This document shows, one piece after another, positions 482 to 13,967 of a stretch of DNA of 39,821 nt. The position numbers and the translations under genes are program-made. Source of the stretch: Bacillota bacterium (lineage in GTDB: Bacteria > Bacillota > DTU025 > MWDF01). The notes below the pieces were generated by a model. It saw only the letters and a program-made list of their open reading frames with translations, ran no database searches and was not told the DNA's origin. How positions within the stretch are numbered: the stretch's first letter is position 1; the number at the start of each line of letters is the position of its first letter. The stretch lies in assembly GCA_029565935.1 (NCBI GenBank), contig JAKQNF010000004.1, positions 1 through 39,821 on the forward strand. The letters are read 5' to 3'.

Positions 482-2158
482 CTACTTCTGAGGATAGAGG
501 ACTGCGGGATCCTTGCTTTCCACAACTTTACGCAGCCATGCCTCTGGGTAGGCGACACCTGTCTTCCTTCCTGTCTTGGTGTCGAATACGAAACCGGCGT
601 CGTACTTCCACATCAAGTTGTCCAGCAGCTGCCACCAAGTTGTAGTGACCTTCTCCACGTTGGAGTTGGCGTACTCGGTTATCGCCTTTATCGCCGCTGC
701 CTTGTCCTTCGCGAGCAGGGCGGTCACGTCTTTCTCGAAGCTGGCCTGATTCTCGAGGGCGCCGCCTTCGAACTTGTCGATGACGGCCATGACGTCCTTG
801 CTCATGTACGACCACTTGAGGTCAGCGTAGGTGCCAACCGACGATATCGCCCACCTGAAGGATTCGCGAGTGAATATGCTGTGGGCTCCCGCGCCGGGGC
901 CGCTGATCGAAGACGACAGCTTCGTCATCGAAGGATAAAGAGGCACATAGCAGGTCAGGTCGGGGTTCGCAGGACCGTACCAGAAGCAGCCAAGCTCATC
1001 GGGGACGGACTTCCTGCTCTGGGTTACGATAGAGTATTCGGTCTGCACTTGTGATATGCCCCTCTGCCAGGAATATGTCACGCCGTCTACCTTGAAAGAC
1101 ATGCCGCGGTATCTCCTGGGATCGTTCCAGGGCCCGGCGCTCAAACCTATAGTCATATCAAATTCAGTGCCTTCATAATGGTCCCTGTTTAGGTTCATGA
1201 CGTCGCGGATGCCCAGCTTCGACGCCACGGGTACGGAGAAGGGCAGGTTAGTCTCGTCCAGCGTAGGACCTATAGCTGGATTGACCAGGCTGAATATCCT
1301 CTTGATCCTCCTGCCGGAGTATTCGGCCCTCTGCGAGTTCGTGAAATGTACGCGCCAACTGAAAGGTATGCCAGAAGCAGGATCGTACCACCCGTTCTCT
1401 ACGGCGAACTCAACTATCCCAGGGGAGCACATGAAACCGGACGTGTTGTCCGTTTCGAGCGCGCCTATGGTGGATGCGTTGCATGTCGCCGATATCTGGC
1501 CGTCAGGGACTCGCTTTGCCACCCAGTAGGCGCCCGGTTCTGCGTCACCTTGCTCCCATAGCGCTCCTGGACCTACTATCTCGAAAGTCCAGGCTTCGTT
1601 CGCATCGCCCACGGCCAGCATCTCGCCGCCCTCGGTGTATCCGTACTTCTGTGCCAGCGTACCCATGATCATGATTGCCTCGCGAGCGCTGGAAGCCCTT
1701 TGCATGGCCAGAAGTGAAAGGTTCTGGATGTTCAACCAGGCGTTCTTGTTCTGCAATTCCCTCCTGCCGCTGAAGGTAGACTCACCTATGGCGACCTGTT
1801 TGTCGTTCATGATGCCGAAGCTTCCGCTCATTATGTATGCATTGGTCTTCTCAACCTGGGGGATGAGGTGCCCGGAGCCCTGCCCCTGACCGCTCTTAGG
1901 ATCGCTCATCTGCACACAAGTAAGCGCTTGAACCAGCACGGGGATGTCATAGAGGGCTCCTTTCTCGAAGGTCTTGGCCTCCACCTTGTACAGCTCCCAT
2001 GGAGCGCCTCCCGCATCGCACGTGTGCGTTACGGACGTGCTTCCTGTCACCGAGCTCGATGCCGGCAGCAGGATGGAAGTGCACGCCGATGACACTGAAG
2101 ACAGCGCAAGCACGGTCAGGATGATTACGATTGACGCTATCGTGTTCCTTCTTCTCAT
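482..2158 (-). CDS. Secreted C69-family dipeptidase
   Basis: The protein has 558 residues. The start at 2158 was chosen over the longer open frame to 2245 because AGGAGGAGG lies just upstream and because a signal peptide follows (MRRRNT, a hydrophobic core, cleavage after SSA). The mature N-terminus is Cys26 (CTSILLPASS), the expected Ntn-type nucleophile of C69, followed by SVTHTCDAGG. The length fits the long, signal-peptide-bearing branch of the family. It should hydrolyse dipeptides outside the cytoplasm. Its transcript is unusual: a promoter (2456-2484), a translated-looking leader ORF rich in aromatic codons (2259-2426) and a terminator (2193-2225) lie ahead of it, suggesting attenuation. 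A strong terminator follows at 408-444. The family assignment is confident; the exact specificity is unknown. Confidence 0.93.
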   Translation of the reverse strand: MRRRNTIASIVIILTVLALSSVSSACTSILLPASSSVTGSTSVTHTCDAGGAPWELYKVEAKTFEKGALYDIPVLVQALTCVQMSDPKSGQGQGSGHLIPQVEKTNAYIMSGSFGIMNDKQVAIGESTFSGRRELQNKNAWLNIQNLSLLAMQRASSAREAIMIMGTLAQKYGYTEGGEMLAVGDANEAWTFEIVGPGALWEQGDAEPGAYWVAKRVPDGQISATCNASTIGALETDNTSGFMCSPGIVEFAVENGWYDPASGIPFSWRVHFTNSQRAEYSGRRIKRIFSLVNPAIGPTLDETNLPFSVPVASKLGIRDVMNLNRDHYEGTEFDMTIGLSAGPWNDPRRYRGMSFKVDGVTYSWQRGISQVQTEYSIVTQSRKSVPDELGCFWYGPANPDLTCYVPLYPSMTKLSSSISGPGAGAHSIFTRESFRWAISSVGTYADLKWSYMSKDVMAVIDKFEGGALENQASFEKDVTALLAKDKAAAIKAITEYANSNVEKVTTTWWQLLDNLMWKYDAGFVFDTKTGRKTGVAYPEAWLRKVVESKDPAVLYPQK

Positions 2159-2192: not shown

Positions 2193-2225
2193 AAAAAATG
2201 AAGCCCGGCCATCTTCGCCGGGTTC
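2193..2225 (-). terminator. Terminator-like hairpin in the leader of the C69 gene (candidate attenuator)
   Basis: On the minus strand GAACCCGGC (2225-2217) pairs with GCCGGGCTTC (2209-2200, one bulged C), followed by A and six T (2198-2193). It lies after the leader ORF stop (2259) and before the SD of the C69 gene. Unless conditional, it would shut off the gene it precedes. A second hairpin, CCTGCCT (2254-2248) with AGGTAGG (2231-2225), abuts it. Confidence 0.75.
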
Positions 2226-2258
2226 CTACCTATATCTGGCCTCACACAGGCAGGTTAT

Positions 2259-2426
2259 TCAATTGTTCAAACGCCAGTAATAAAAGTAGCTGAAGCTGCT
2301 AAAGCTGAAGCCATATACGAAGGACGAAAAAGAAGGGCCATGGAAAACCATGGCCCTTGATGTCCTGACTCCGGAGGATGCGGGATTGGACGAACTGCCA
2401 GTATTATCGGTAGTATTTAGTCTCAT
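2259..2426 (-). CDS. Leader peptide with aromatic codon cluster (55 aa)
   Basis: This short ORF starts at ATG 2426 with a very strong SD (GAGGAGGTG) at ideal spacing, 22 bases downstream of the predicted transcription start. The first half is rich in Ser, Thr and Asn; the last third carries many aromatic residues (GFSFSSFSYFYYW), and the protein ends RLNN. The stop lies just before the two hairpins at 2193-2254 that precede the C69 dipeptidase gene. The layout matches amino-acid-sensing attenuators, where ribosomes slow at codons for the sensed amino acid. I do not recognise the peptide from any known leader. The internal hairpin at 2333-2358 lies inside this ORF, so translation would melt it. 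Translation is likely from the SD; the regulatory role is inferred. Confidence 0.6.
   Translation of the reverse strand: MRLNTTDNTGSSSNPASSGVRTSRAMVFHGPSFSSFVYGFSFSSFSYFYYWRLNN
2326..2358 (-). terminator. Terminator-like hairpin inside the leader ORF
   Basis: AAGGGCCATGG (2358-2348) pairs perfectly with CCATGGCCCTT (2343-2333) over a TTTT loop, followed by CTTTTTC on the minus strand. It could end read-through from the operon upstream, or act as an early checkpoint that a translating ribosome on the leader ORF disrupts. Confidence 0.7.
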
Positions 2427-2455
2427 ACCGCACCTCCTCGTCAACTTTGCCTACT

Positions 2456-2484
2456 AGATTACATAATCGCCGAAGGAAAAGCAA
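2456..2484 (-). promoter_or_regulatory. Promoter of the C69 leader transcript
   Basis: TTGCTT (2484-2479), a 17-base spacer and TAATCT (2461-2456) fit a sigma70-type promoter. Predicted start is near 2449. It lies just after the stop of the hydrolase gene at 2492, so leader and C69 gene can be transcribed independently. Confidence 0.6.
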
Positions 2485-3850: not shown

Positions 3851-4714
3851 TCACCAAATCGGCCAGTTGACTATCTTGCCGCCGAAGTAGACCAGAACGA
3901 AAGCGATCGCGGTGATGAACACCCACGGAACGGCGGCTCTCTTCAGGAATTGGCCGTAAGTGCCCTTATAGTCGGTGGTCTGCCTTGTCATCCTGTAGAT
4001 TATCGCAGTGGGAGGCAGCGCGTCGCCTAGCGCCCACAGCAGGGAAAGGCCAGATATCACCAACGGCAGGGCCTGGTTGAAACCGCGAGAAGACATGGTC
4101 CAGATAAGCGGGATACCGATGACAGCCGCTCCGCCGAAGCCGAGCACTCCTTCTGTTATTGGGTTCACAACGAGCAGGCTGATAAGCATCACCTGTATCG
4201 GTAGAGCGATTATCGCGAACGATACGAGGCCTCTCACGCCGGTGACCGAGAGTATCTGGATGAATATCCCGACGACGATCATCGTCGTCATAAGGGGCAG
4301 CAGCTGTGTAAGCGTGTTCTCGGCCAGCTTGAGGACGTTTATCTTGGCGCTCTTAGGAGCGCAGATGAGTGCGAATACCGCGCTGATTAGGAATACCAAA
4401 GGCAGTCCTAGAGTAGGTATGACGAACTTTACCACCCTGGGGGCCATGAACAGGATTACCAATACCAAGAAAGGTATCAGTAGCCTTATCGCGTTCATCC
4501 CTGCAGGAATTTCGGGTAGCTTCTCCGTCTCATCAATGGCGGCGGTCTTCTTGATGCCTAGCCAGAAGATAACGAAAAGGCCGCAGATGAGGACGGGCCA
4601 CAATAGCGGAAGCTCAAACCCGACATAAGGTACTCCGGTACCTCCGCATATGAGCATGGCCCAGATGGATACGGGAGGTGCAACCGCGGCGAGGCCTGCC
4701 AGGAAGAATATCAT
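3851..4714 (-). CDS. TRAP/DctM-like permease, C-terminal part (downstream of apparent frameshift)
   Basis: This 287-residue frame begins at ATG 4714, overlapping the TGA of the preceding frame in an ATGA. Continuing the frame upstream gives a sensible permease sequence (VSKDRAAAM directly before the ATG), which implies that both frames belong to one protein of about 440 residues. Motifs such as APPVSIWAMLICGG and PYVGF recall the large permease of TRAP-type and related ion-coupled transporters; about eight hydrophobic helices are visible. No good SD lies before 4714 (GGACAGGG is 14 bases away), as expected for a broken gene, although translational coupling through ATGA is possible. The substrate is unknown; operon partners point to a small organic acid or acylated amino acid. 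Confidence 0.75.
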   Translation of the reverse strand: MIFFLAGLAAVAPPVSIWAMLICGGTGVPYVGFELPLLWPVLICGLFVIFWLGIKKTAAIDETEKLPEIPAGMNAIRLLIPFLVLVILFMAPRVVKFVIPTLGLPLVFLISAVFALICAPKSAKINVLKLAENTLTQLLPLMTTMIVVGIFIQILSVTGVRGLVSFAIIALPIQVMLISLLVVNPITEGVLGFGGAAVIGIPLIWTMSSRGFNQALPLVISGLSLLWALGDALPPTAIIYRMTRQTTDYKGTYGQFLKRAAVPWVFITAIAFVLVYFGGKIVNWPIW

Positions 4715-5172
4715 CGCTGCGGCCCTGTCCTTGGATACTCTATCCTCGATAGGACCAAAGCGGCAGTAGAGCCTGCCACAAGCACCGAAACGCTGCCGGC
4801 GCCCGTTATGGCACCGGGGACGAGCATCAGAATCATCACCAGAAGCAATGCCAACGGCCTTATGTTAGATACGCTCAATATGGCCTTCGCCATGAGGGTA
4901 AGGCCGCCGGATTCTTTGATGATGTTCATGAAGAATGTCGCGAAGAAGAAAATCAGGATCAAGTCAAGGTAGGTAGCTGCGCCTTCAGCTATGTGCCTTA
5001 GAGGCAACAACAGTTCGAGGCGGTTTACGTCGGGAAGGATTATTCCTCCGACTATTGAAGCCGCTATAGCGGTCACGAACATGCTCAGTTCGACGCTCAG
5101 CTTCAACTTCGTACTGGCCAGTACGTAAACTACCACCATGACCGCAAGGACTATCAAAGTCAATGTATACAT
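4711..5172 (-). CDS. TRAP/DctM-like permease, N-terminal part (frameshifted)
   Basis: The 153-residue frame starts at ATG 5172 (AAAGGGG upstream). It carries about four or five hydrophobic helices, the last ending in GSVSVLVAGSTAALVLSRI, then an out-of-place hydrophilic tail EYPRTGPQR and a TGA. Adding one G in the GAG codon at 4738-4740 would read RIGVSKDRAAAM and run without a break into the next frame. The simplest reading is therefore a single permease gene (3851-5172) broken by a one-base deletion or sequencing error. The two-polypeptide alternative, coupled by the ATGA overlap, cannot be excluded. It follows the DUF6305 gene after a 102-base gap that contains a large hairpin. Confidence 0.75.
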   Translation of the reverse strand: MYTLTLIVLAVMVVVYVLASTKLKLSVELSMFVTAIAASIVGGIILPDVNRLELLLPLRHIAEGAATYLDLILIFFFATFFMNIIKESGGLTLMAKAILSVSNIRPLALLLVMILMLVPGAITGAGSVSVLVAGSTAALVLSRIEYPRTGPQR

Positions 5173-5274: not shown

Positions 5275-5955
5275 TTACTTAACGCCGAAGATCTCTTTGA
5301 GTAGGTTGATCTTATCGTTCGTAGCCTTGGGCAGTGTTATTAGAGGTATATTGGCCTTCTTGGCAATGTCTGTGAACTTCCCGTCCTGGTTGGAGCTCTC
5401 CTCGACTATCAGGCAGTTCATCTTGGGCGCTACGGCGTCGATTATCTGCTCGAATTCAGAACCCGGCTTGCCTCTCATGGGAAGGCCCTCGATATGCATG
5501 CCGATCATCTTCAGCTTGTTCTTCACGCAGTAGTCGATGATGCCGTTTATCCTCTTGAGCTCATCTGCCATAGTCAGGCCTGACGCTCCCATGCCCTTAA
5601 GGCTGTAGCCTATGACGAAGACCACCGTCTTGTAAGGTGTGCCCTTCGGCGCGGTCGAGTTCAGCCTTACGTAGGCATCGCCGGTTCCGCCCTCTTCCTT
5701 GCTCTTCATGGTGGGCAGGCCAACGCCTGCGGCCACATCCTTGGCATCGGGTATGTCGGACCAGTCAAAAGGTATCTTGCCTCTGTTCATCAAAGCCTCT
5801 ACGGTGAAGATACCGCCGCTCTGCCCTGCACAATGCATCAGGACGGGTAGCTCTGCCGTGAACGGTACGGCAGCGGATGCGGCGTAGGGCATCAGCATAG
5901 CTGCTGCCATCGCCACGATTGCCAGGACTAGTACTACGCGCTTCATTCTGGACAT
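5275..5955 (-). CDS. Exported DUF6305-family protein
   Basis: The protein has 226 residues. The start at 5955 was chosen because AGGAGG lies seven bases upstream; the ATG at 5946 is too far from it. Residues 1-28 are a signal peptide ending YAASAA. The mature part has the pattern I associate with DUF6305: HCAGQSGG near the start, TVVFVIGYSLKGMGASG in the middle, then MIGMHIEGLPMRGKPGSEFE and a late EESSNQDGKFTDIA. It lacks an obvious enzyme active site. As the first gene of an operon with a permease, and as an exported protein, it could be a substrate-capturing subunit. The family call is from memory of sequence pattern; the function is inferred. Confidence 0.72.
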   Translation of the reverse strand: MSRMKRVVLVLAIVAMAAAMLMPYAASAAVPFTAELPVLMHCAGQSGGIFTVEALMNRGKIPFDWSDIPDAKDVAAGVGLPTMKSKEEGGTGDAYVRLNSTAPKGTPYKTVVFVIGYSLKGMGASGLTMADELKRINGIIDYCVKNKLKMIGMHIEGLPMRGKPGSEFEQIIDAVAPKMNCLIVEESSNQDGKFTDIAKKANIPLITLPKATNDKINLLKEIFGVK

Positions 5956-11045: not shown

Positions 11046-11780
11046 CTAATCGTCGGCACCTAATGCCTTGGCTACTAGCTCATATGCCTTGTCCCTGCCG
11101 GCCTTTTCGGGCTCGATGCGGGCTACTACCCTGGCCGGCCTCGAAGACAGGACGTAGACTACATCGGACAGGAAACACGCCTCATATATGTCGTGCGTGC
11201 TCATAAGGACCGTAAGCCCAAGCTCCGTCTTTACCTCAAGCAGCCATCTTTGCATCTGCCTCCTGGTAAGCGCGTCGAGGGCCCCCAAAGGCTCGTCCAG
11301 TATCAAGAAGCGCCTTTTCTGCATGACCGTCCTGAGCAAGGCGACTCTTTGCCTCATGCCGCCTGATAGGTCGCTGGGAAGGTACTCCTCGAAACCCGAC
11401 AGGCCGAACACCGGTATGAGCCTCATGGCATCCAGCCTGGCCGAGGCGACATCCCCGCCGCTGAGGTCGGTACCCAAAACGGCGTTTCCGATCGTGCTCC
11501 TCCAGGGTAAAAGCAGGTCCTTCTGCGGCATGTACGAGCACATCTCCGGCATATGGACAGTGCTTCCAGGACTTTTCGGCAGCTTCCCTGACAGGATGGA
11601 GAAGAAAGTGCTCTTGCCGCAGCCGGACGGCCCCAGCAAGCTTACGAACTCGCCCCTCCTCACCTCGAGGTCGATGCCGTCTAGGACCTGGACGTGTCCG
11701 TGCTTCAGGCTTTTGTAGGAGAAGCTCAGGCCGTCAACCTTCAGCATGAGGCCCTTAAGCCCTACTTCGGCATCCGTCAT
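11046..11780 (-). CDS. thiZ: ABC transporter ATPase for thiamine precursor uptake (ThiZ-like)
   Basis: The protein has 244 residues from ATG 11780, which overlaps the stop of the binding-protein gene in an ATGA; a longer frame to 11930 would run far into that gene. Motifs in order are Walker A GPSGCGKST, Q-loop MPQKDLLLPW, signature LSGGMRQR, Walker B FLILDEP and the switch histidine in STHD. This is the nitrate/sulfonate/HMP type of ABC ATPase that powers import through a ThiX-like permease. It is the last gene of a TPP-riboswitch operon, which is why a thiamine-precursor role is favoured. A start at 11747 is an alternative. Confidence 0.88.
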   Translation of the reverse strand: MTDAEVGLKGLMLKVDGLSFSYKSLKHGHVQVLDGIDLEVRRGEFVSLLGPSGCGKSTFFSILSGKLPKSPGSTVHMPEMCSYMPQKDLLLPWRSTIGNAVLGTDLSGGDVASARLDAMRLIPVFGLSGFEEYLPSDLSGGMRQRVALLRTVMQKRRFLILDEPLGALDALTRRQMQRWLLEVKTELGLTVLMSTHDIYEACFLSDVVYVLSSRPARVVARIEPEKAGRDKAYELVAKALGADD

Positions 11781-12745
11781 GGCAGCAGCTCGTTTGTGAA
11801 GAACTTGTCGGGATCCTGGCCCGTCTTCGCCAGATCGTGCCCGCACATCCATTCGTAGAGCGACCTCCACGTCGACTGTTTCTGTATACCCCACTTGGAG
11901 GCGTCTTCGATGTACCTCGGAGAAAGCCACGCTTGGCTTTCCATCGCAAGCTTCTGGTTAATCTCGGGTGAGCGCTTGATCAGGATGTTCGCCGATTCGA
12001 CGGGGTTGGCGGCCGCGTAGGTGTATCCTCTCGAAGTCGCGTTTATGAAAGCCCTCGCCGTCGCCTTGTTTGTCTCCAGGTATTTCCTCGAAGTGATGAT
12101 GATGGGGGTGTAGTAGTCCGGGATGCCCGGTACGTCCCTAAGCATGACGGTGGAAAGCTCGATACCCCTTTGTTTGGCCTCGATGCCCTGCCAGCCCATG
12201 TAGATCCAGGCTATGTCGACGTCGCGGCCGAGCATGGCAAGCAGGTCGGCAGTGCCGATGACAAGCTCCTTTAGCTTGGAGGGATCTCCGCCGTCGGATC
12301 TGACCACGTCGGATATCATGGCCTTCTCCAGGGGAAGTCCCCAGCTGGCGAACGTCTTGCCTTGGAAGTCTTTGGGGCTTTTGATGCCGGACTTCTTAAG
12401 GAAAGCATAGGCGGAAGTATTATGCTGGATCACGGCCGCCACAGATACTATAGGTAGGCCCTCCGCCATCGCCGCCGTGGCCCATTCTTGGAAACTAATC
12501 CCGAAATCCACTTTACCGGACGCGACCAGCTGCTCTATCGAAAGGGCCTGGCTCTGCTCCATTATCTCCACGTCGAGCCCAGAGTCCTTGTAATAGCCTT
12601 TGTCCAGCGCCACGAAAAGCCCTGTATGGTTTGTATTCGGCACCCAGTCCAGCATTATCGCGACTTTCGTCGCCGATTCCGCAGCGGGGGCCGCGATAGA
12701 AAGTAAGATCAGCGCCAGCGCCGACAGAATCCAAATCCTTCTCAT
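11777..12745 (-). CDS. thiY: Substrate-binding protein for a thiamine precursor (ThiY/NMT1-like)
   Basis: The protein has 322 residues. ATG 12745 has GGGAGG upstream and overlaps the permease stop (ATGA). Residues 1-24 form a signal peptide. The mature protein opens with LDWVPNTNHTGLFVALDKGYY, the diagnostic start of the NMT1/THI5-like periplasmic binding proteins, and continues with the LVASGKVDFGISFQEW region. Proteins of this type bind formyl-aminopyrimidine or HMP, or other nitrogen heterocycles. The TPP riboswitch upstream makes a pyrimidine precursor of thiamine the likely ligand. The position between permease and ATPase genes completes a standard importer. Confidence 0.9.
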   Translation of the reverse strand: MRRIWILSALALILLSIAAPAAESATKVAIMLDWVPNTNHTGLFVALDKGYYKDSGLDVEIMEQSQALSIEQLVASGKVDFGISFQEWATAAMAEGLPIVSVAAVIQHNTSAYAFLKKSGIKSPKDFQGKTFASWGLPLEKAMISDVVRSDGGDPSKLKELVIGTADLLAMLGRDVDIAWIYMGWQGIEAKQRGIELSTVMLRDVPGIPDYYTPIIITSRKYLETNKATARAFINATSRGYTYAAANPVESANILIKRSPEINQKLAMESQAWLSPRYIEDASKWGIQKQSTWRSLYEWMCGHDLAKTGQDPDKFFTNELLP

Positions 12746-13521
12746 TTCTCTACCTCCCAAATATCCGTCTCTACGCGGTAGTACCATGGGGCGGCCTTCC
12801 TCGCCAGGAAGTTGACCCCGGAGAATATCGCCATACTAAGTCCCGCTATCACGAAAAGCACTGCGAAGACCCTGTCGGTCAGGAAGGAATGCGATGATCT
12901 TGTAAGGTAGACTCCCAAACCTTTTTGGGAACCCATCCACTCTGATACAACGGTCGCGATTATCGCATAGGTCGCGGACACCCTGATGCCGGTGAAGATG
13001 GAGGGCAATGAAGCGGGCCACCTGACCTTCCAGAACAAGCGCCAGCTCTTCGCCCCCATGCTCTTCGCAAGGTCGATGAGCTCCGGATCCGCGGACGACA
13101 GCCCGTCGACGACGCCAACGCAGATGGGGAAGAAGCATGCCAGCACCACAAGGAGCACCTTAGGCAGCATCCCGAAGCCGAACCACAGCACCAACAGCGG
13201 CGCTACGACGATCGTCGGCAGGCTCTGTGACGCTACCAGCAAAGGATACAGGGTCGATCTGAGGAACCTGGACGTGAAGACCGTTATCCCGAGAATCATC
13301 CCTGCCAGCGTAGACGCCGCCATGCCTATGAGCGCGGCCCATAGCGTCGCGAGCGTATGGCCGGCGAGCAGGGGAAGCGTCTCCCAGAATGCGGAGAACA
13401 CGGCCGTAGGGGACGGGAAGAGCCACTTGGGCACGTCGAACGTCCTCGTAATGCCCTCGATGATCGCCAGCACGAAAGCGGCGAGCAAGATGGGCCTTAG
13501 AACCCTCATCCACCTACGCAC
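12742..13521 (-). CDS. thiX: ABC transporter permease for thiamine precursor uptake (ThiX-like)
   Basis: The protein has 259 residues. The start is probably GTG 13521, which overlaps the upstream stop (GTGCGTAG); ATG 13509 is an alternative but has its SD too close. About six transmembrane helices are visible. The EAA loop, which docks the ATPase, is the ELIDLAKSMGAKSWRLFWKV region, followed by PASLPSIFTGIRVS. This is the BPD_transp_1 type used by nitrate, sulfonate and HMP importers. The gene is translationally coupled at both ends to its operon neighbours. Confidence 0.92.
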   Translation of the reverse strand: MRRWMRVLRPILLAAFVLAIIEGITRTFDVPKWLFPSPTAVFSAFWETLPLLAGHTLATLWAALIGMAASTLAGMILGITVFTSRFLRSTLYPLLVASQSLPTIVVAPLLVLWFGFGMLPKVLLVVLACFFPICVGVVDGLSSADPELIDLAKSMGAKSWRLFWKVRWPASLPSIFTGIRVSATYAIIATVVSEWMGSQKGLGVYLTRSSHSFLTDRVFAVLFVIAGLSMAIFSGVNFLARKAAPWYYRVETDIWEVEK

Positions 13522-13853: not shown

Positions 13854-13864
13854 AAACATCCATC

Positions 13865-13953
13865 ACTGGCACTACCTACGCCGGTATTAACCGGATCAGG
13901 TGATGACGGGTCGGCGGCATGAAGCCGCCCTCTCAGCTTGCGCTCCCCGGGCC
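13865..13953 (-). ncRNA. TPP riboswitch (THI element)
   Basis: The minus strand carries all the conserved parts in order: GGGGAGC, the core GCTGAGAGGG, a variable GGCGGC/GCCGCC stem, GACCC, then ACCTGATCCGGTTAATACC and GGCGTAGG. The pyrimidine-sensing GCTGAGA and the diphosphate-side CCTGATCCGG elements are intact. It sits between a strong promoter (13968-13996) and a terminator (13821-13853), so high TPP should stop transcription of the uptake operon. Confidence 0.97.
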
Positions 13954-13967
13954 TTATATTTTTCTAC

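Follow-up and report, generated by a model that had tools for sequence, protein, structure and literature searches.

Attenuators that read a run of codons are known mainly from Proteobacteria and Actinobacteria, for genes of amino acid biosynthesis, and their work is usually done by T-boxes in Firmicutes. The leader ORF of E. coli pyrBI continues across a single terminator, the only one before the genes, and read-through in coupled attenuators of this type is set by pausing of the polymerase that depends on nucleotides. Leader-peptide control is rare in Firmicutes, where it has been proposed for the histidine leader peptides found before hisS and hisZ in bacilli (PMC2965389). Within the openly accessible literature, searches turned up no description of a peptidase gene controlled by a leader-peptide attenuator.

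The leader described here occupies positions 2484–2193 of a 39,821-nucleotide stretch of DNA from a Bacillota bacterium, analysed as a whole and referred to below as the window. It is located between an M14-like gene (upstream) and the gene of an exported C69 dipeptidase (downstream), and all of its features lie on the minus strand. In the 5'-to-3' order they comprise a promoter-like block, a Shine-Dalgarno sequence, an ORF with hairpin H1 inside it, a run of aromatic codons, the stop codon, hairpin P1, and terminator T, followed by the C69 gene:

2492–3664, minus strand: M14-like gene of the succinylglutamate desuccinylase/aspartoacylase family, upstream of the leader (PF24827, E 1.3e-6)
2456–2484, minus strand: promoter-like sequence TTGCTT-17-TAATCT, directly after the M14-like stop codon; position and -10 block kept in three species
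2433–2439, minus strand: Shine-Dalgarno sequence GAGGAGG of the leader ORF, conserved in three species
2377–2434, minus strand: P0, a possible stem of GGTGCGG (2434–2428) with CCGCATC (2383–2377); seven pairs possible in three species
2259–2426, minus strand: leader ORF, MRLNTTDNTGSSSNPASSGVRTSRAMVFHGPSFSSFVYGFSFSSFSYFYYWRLNN, exactly 55 codons in three species
2333–2358, minus strand: H1, an 11-bp hairpin within the ORF that resembles a terminator and has a U-rich tail; recurs in relatives
2277–2285, minus strand: invariant Phe-Tyr-Tyr codons, 25 nt upstream of P1 in all three leaders
2225–2254, minus strand: P1, an 11-bp hairpin, CCTGCCTGTGT/ATATAGGTAGG, with the loop GAGGCCAG; begins 4 nt past the stop codon
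2193–2222, minus strand: T, an intrinsic terminator, CCCGGC/GCCGGG, with the tail CTTCATTTTTT; hairpin conserved in three species
482–2158, minus strand: gene of a secreted C69 (Ntn-hydrolase) dipeptidase behind the leader (PF03577, E 1.3e-48)

Like pheL-pheA, trpL-trpE, and hisL-hisG of E. coli, this locus consists of a Shine-Dalgarno sequence and a short ORF, with a codon run near the end of the latter and a terminator before the gene, and the stop codon follows a few codons after a run for one class of amino acids. Unlike those leaders, it has no antiterminator at the regulatory codons and contains an extra hairpin inside the ORF, which is 55 codons long rather than 14–16, and the gene that follows encodes an exported peptidase instead of a biosynthetic enzyme. 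The leaders of hisS and hisZ in bacilli differ from it in both the amino acid and the target gene, and no common sequence family is claimed. The terminator-like hairpin within the leader ORF (H1) is a feature shared with pyrBI, whereas a second terminator, T, located ~36 nt past the stop codon and beyond the 27 nt range of suppression (PMC4824070), sets the two apart.

With T-box riboswitches (RF00230) the leader would share the sensing of aminoacyl-tRNA in Firmicutes, using a translated ORF instead. The RF00230 covariance model has no match in the window, including the leader. Nine T-boxes are present elsewhere in the same genome, one of them before pheS, two before genes of ABC substrate-binding proteins (PF04392), and others, judged by sequence, before several other aminoacyl-tRNA synthetase genes. 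The two PF04392 T-boxes (G000:C36:64773-65028 and G000:C8:91920-92172; L169 and L170) precede genes that possibly encode tryptophan/tyrosine transporters of the TrpX kind.

Layout and conservation of the leader

Each of the three species available for the genus carries this locus; they are represented by this genome, by G001 (a match to Firmicutes bacterium ADurb.Bin153, L022), and by G002 (L004, L105). The comparison is made among these three species only, all of them apparently represented by metagenome assemblies, two of which are incomplete. An earlier note on this DNA had suggested comparing the leaders of related genomes; within the genus, the ORF and its aromatic codons are found in all three species, leaving the proposal standing.

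The stop codon of the M14-like gene is positioned just before the promoter-like block TATGTAATCTA, which is conserved in the three species. The promoter marked there by the earlier note is thus upheld in its position and its -10 block; however, it does not rise above chance in a consensus promoter scan, which returned as many sites as in shuffled sequences and did not list this one, and the assignment is only plausible. The Shine-Dalgarno sequence and the 55-codon ORF, also reported before, are borne out, as the start (ATG at 2426), frame, length, and stop (2261–2259) are kept in the three species together with the Shine-Dalgarno sequence, and the sequence of the 55-residue peptides (MRLNTTDNTGSSSNPASSGVRTSRAMVFHGPSFSSFVYGFSFSSFSYFYYWRLNN, MRPNTEYSTGSPVNTASFDVKTSGAMVFHGPSFSSFVSDFDFSGFGRFYYRYAPS, and MKAMRMRANDRPVNSALNCVGCLKAALLRGLHHFSFIFWGAPLYFGFFYYPCAES) drifts freely. 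The gamma-glutamyltransferase-like gene of the same genomes has a start region nearly identical to that of the leader ORF. When second copies of the leader were sought in the genome, the DNA matches were only to such gamma-glutamyltransferase-like start regions, and no second copy is accepted.

The dense run of Phe, Tyr, and Trp codons extends over codons 33–51 of the ORF. These residues account for 11 of the last 25 codons in this genome, and for 9 and 10 of 25 in the two relatives. Shuffles of the same 75 nt reach 11 aromatic codons in 0.05% of stop-free cases for this genome, the corresponding fraction being 0.12% for each of the relatives. Over the same stretch, the two alternative frames contain only three and five aromatic codons, so that the run is specific to the frame. 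The aromatic cluster near the end of the ORF, which had been pointed out from the letters of this DNA, therefore holds up. The in-frame enrichment is retained even in the species whose ORF is only ~42% identical. Of 671 short ORFs, taken from the window and from further stretches of this genome, the leader ORF is alone in having at least nine aromatic residues in the last 25 codons. The six Phe codons of the tail are all matched by Phe codons in the sister species, with a Fisher p of 0.017 for this comparison, which was chosen once the data had been seen.

The substitutions are spread evenly over the codon positions (14/15/16 between the closest pair of species), which indicates a leader peptide free of selection at the protein level, and a small functional protein was rejected as an interpretation on the ground that the ORF has no such constraint. 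Judged from the three sequences, the pattern of conservation is that of a cis-acting leader and not of a protein gene. The leader is real, conserved, and specific to the genus, and we infer that its ORF is translated; it is probably regulatory and probably reads Phe and Tyr codons.

Outside the genus, G003 carries the C69 gene beside the same end of the M14-like gene (assigned by eye), and the 115-nt gap before C69 contains no such leader in this single case. More distant orthologues in the order (L023–L025) follow another C69 gene after short gaps, with no leader. The genome described here has about ten C69 genes in 1.8 Mb, an unusual number, and among the upstream regions of the other C69 genes that were read, none includes an aromatic run or a leader.

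The C69 gene starts at 2158, only ~45 nt after T, which itself lies between the ORF and the gene, and this short interval has no obvious promoter. The protein begins with a signal sequence followed by Cys, judged by eye. Elsewhere in the window, two adjoining membrane proteins (3851–5172, minus strand), which have no Pfam or NCBIfam match, resemble halves of one transporter and are adjoined by a DUF6305 protein (5275–5955). A TPP riboswitch (13855–13959, minus strand) is located just upstream of an ABC transporter (11046–13521) with an NMT1/THI5-like binding protein, and these two features together make it probable that the latter transports a thiamin precursor.

Hairpins of the leader and what they might do

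The earlier note had placed two hairpins after the ORF, the second of them a terminator, and both P1 and T are indeed found and kept in the three species. The base that it assigned to both hairpins, 2225, was an error, as P1 spans 2254–2225 and the hairpin of T spans 2222–2204 (followed by the tail to 2193), with no overlap. No other part of the locus is as well conserved as P1, which is 100% identical in the closer relative and 87% identical in the farther one; the ORF reaches 67–70% (closer relative) and 42–43% (farther relative), and the last part of the M14-like gene 82% and 80%. Searched for in 398 genomes of the phylum, the P1 motif is present as a single copy in each of the three from this genus and absent from the other 395. 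The gap between the stop codon and P1 is 4 nt in all three leaders.

P1 might itself be the element through which regulation occurs, bound by a protein, a ligand, or a trans-acting RNA, with an ORF that is incidental or only keeps the RNA open. The high conservation of P1 and of its loop is what recognition of a specific sequence would lead one to expect, and in the rimP leader conservation with no visible antiterminator was taken as a sign of a protein (PMC2965389). We consider this explanation unlikely, since it accounts neither for the frame-specific aromatic run nor for the fixed spacings of Phe-Tyr-Tyr and of the stop codon, and no Rfam family reaches its gathering threshold at the leader (the best, ncS54, scores 31 bits here, with a threshold of 43, and 25.6 bits in a relative). 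An Rfam identity of the leader was rejected, the matches being below threshold and inconsistent between species.

The terminator-like hairpin that the earlier note saw inside the ORF corresponds to H1 (2358–2333, followed by CTTCTTTTTC). Six of its 11 pairs change across the three species with the pairing kept, and its U-rich tail is good in two species and poor in the third. The P0 stem, in which two of the seven pairs vary, could possibly cover the start and ribosome-binding region of the ORF. These two elements lend themselves to a coupling of the pyrBI type, in which H1 would terminate transcription unless a ribosome follows closely, so that translation of the leader controls the outcome and the aromatic tail is of little importance. 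The P0 stem, which could form in each of the three species, might gate that translation; H1 is a strong hairpin with co-varying pairs and, in two species, a U-rich tail; and terminators within the reach of a ribosome are suppressed (PMC4824070). Such coupling nevertheless appears rather improbable, given the poor U-tract of H1 in the third species and the conserved aromatic codons, which come after H1 and so could not act on it.

The U-tract of T is interrupted, and is weak in one species. Dinucleotide shuffles of the 4-kb region yield ~3.7 terminator-like sites, compared with 7 found, and for this reason single matches mean little; both H1 and T, however, recur in the relatives despite such frequent chance matches. 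An absence of any regulation would make H1 and T the ordinary terminators of two transcripts, with the ORF arising by chance or weakly translated and C69 expressed by read-through. The frequency of chance terminators and a peptide under no protein-level selection are compatible with it, but an in-frame aromatic run in three species, a P1 better conserved than coding sequence, and fixed spacings make it quite improbable.

For E. coli, suppression of a terminator by a ribosome positioned at a stop codon extended over 27 nt (PMC4824070). T begins ~36 nt after the stop codon of the leader, and a direct block of T by a ribosome positioned there is unlikely.

A classical antiterminator was sought in the three leaders by placing the A site of a ribosome at each codon in the second half of the ORF and folding the RNA that lies downstream, with trpL, pheL, and hisL of E. 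coli K-12 serving as controls. Pre-emption was expressed as the energy with which the upstream RNA holds the 5' arm of T before its 3' arm emerges. In the controls it reaches its maximum at the regulatory codons (9.3, 15.8, and 6.0 kcal/mol for trpL, pheL, and hisL, respectively) and falls to 0 to 1.5 at the stop codon, whereas the three leaders at Phe-Tyr-Tyr reach 0.0, 0.8–2.8, and 4.2–4.9 kcal/mol. This ribosome-masked, nested folding revealed no antiterminator common to the three leaders at the Phe/Tyr codons, and the probability that T forms stays near 1 for nearly all ribosome positions tested. The classical antiterminator was accordingly rejected, as the positive controls had worked, and the weak point conceded by the earlier note, that a clear antiterminator was not evident, proved to be well founded. 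A trp/phe-type attenuator, in which a ribosome stalled at the aromatic codons lets an antiterminator prevent T, is therefore very unlikely even though the ORF, the codon run, and the terminator are suitably ordered and spaced, as the pre-emption energies lie below those of the controls and no homologous structure is present. The layout of an aromatic operon attenuator, as originally proposed, survives in its conserved ORF, codon run, and terminator, but not in an antiterminator of the kind present in trpL, pheL, and hisL. Since the folding gave no common antiterminator, control by the supply of aminoacyl-tRNA is something that we infer, and an aromatic ORF plus a terminator is by itself no proof of a textbook switch.

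A proposed action of the leader through P1

To the reading that the locus is a genus-specific, cis-acting leader with Phe/Tyr codons, steering transcription into the peptidase gene through P1, we give about even chances, and it is the best of those considered. Transcription would start after the M14-like gene, and a ribosome loaded on the 55-codon ORF would trail RNA polymerase past H1. The invariant spacings (25 nt from Phe-Tyr-Tyr to P1 and 4 nt from the stop codon to P1) suggest that a ribosome waiting on the Phe/Tyr codons would leave P1 whole and free to fold, whereas one terminating at the stop codon would cover its 5' arm. The charging of tRNA-Phe and tRNA-Tyr would then decide, via the position of the ribosome, whether P1 exists when the polymerase reaches T, and P1, as the presumed switch, would alter the share of transcripts that pass T into the C69 gene. 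Expression upon starvation is the likelier direction.

According to the folding model, P1 would have to act on T by means other than ordinary competing base pairs. Candidates for this action are a bound protein, coupling, and a kissing interaction in which the loop of P1 (GGCCA) pairs with the segment UGGCC in T. In all three species, the loop is complementary to this segment of the 3' arm of T, and the complementarity extends to 7 bp in the farthest species through changes on both sides. The energies (-9.7, -9.7, and -13.5 kcal/mol for the duplex of the loop with T, compared to -12.1, -16.7, and -17.6 kcal/mol for T in the three species) still favour T, and for that reason the kissing antiterminator is only a candidate.

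Aromatic supply and peptide feeding

Neither DAHP synthase nor prephenate dehydratase was found in this 98%-complete genome, and chorismate synthase was found in none of the three genomes of the genus; positive controls in the same searches worked. The three species are, on these grounds, probably auxotrophs for aromatic amino acids, although they may have routes that bypass shikimate. About ten C69 genes fit a peptide feeder, and scavenging of aromatic residues from peptides makes sense for genomes that appear to have no shikimate pathway. On the substrate side, the leader precedes not a biosynthetic gene but an exported peptidase in a probable aromatic auxotroph. The leader may thus tie the digestion of peptides to the aromatic supply, an idea supported by the gene content and the codon run.

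The absence of the leader before C69 in G003, which has chorismate synthase, was counted in favour of a Phe/Tyr-codon leader acting through P1; other members of the order are without chorismate synthase and without the leader alike. Against the same reading, the lineage has a T-box before pheS, and a second sensing device is therefore not required. We can only tentatively suggest the complete chain of events, by our estimate a doubtful one, in which a leader peptide senses tRNA-Phe and tRNA-Tyr, P1 works through its loop or a bound factor, and the exported peptidase allows an auxotroph to feed on peptides.

Should control of T be achieved with no competing antiterminator, ribosomes would have a further means of controlling intrinsic terminators. 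If the reading is true, attenuation would extend from making an amino acid to scavenging it, by way of an extracellular peptidase in a probable auxotroph.
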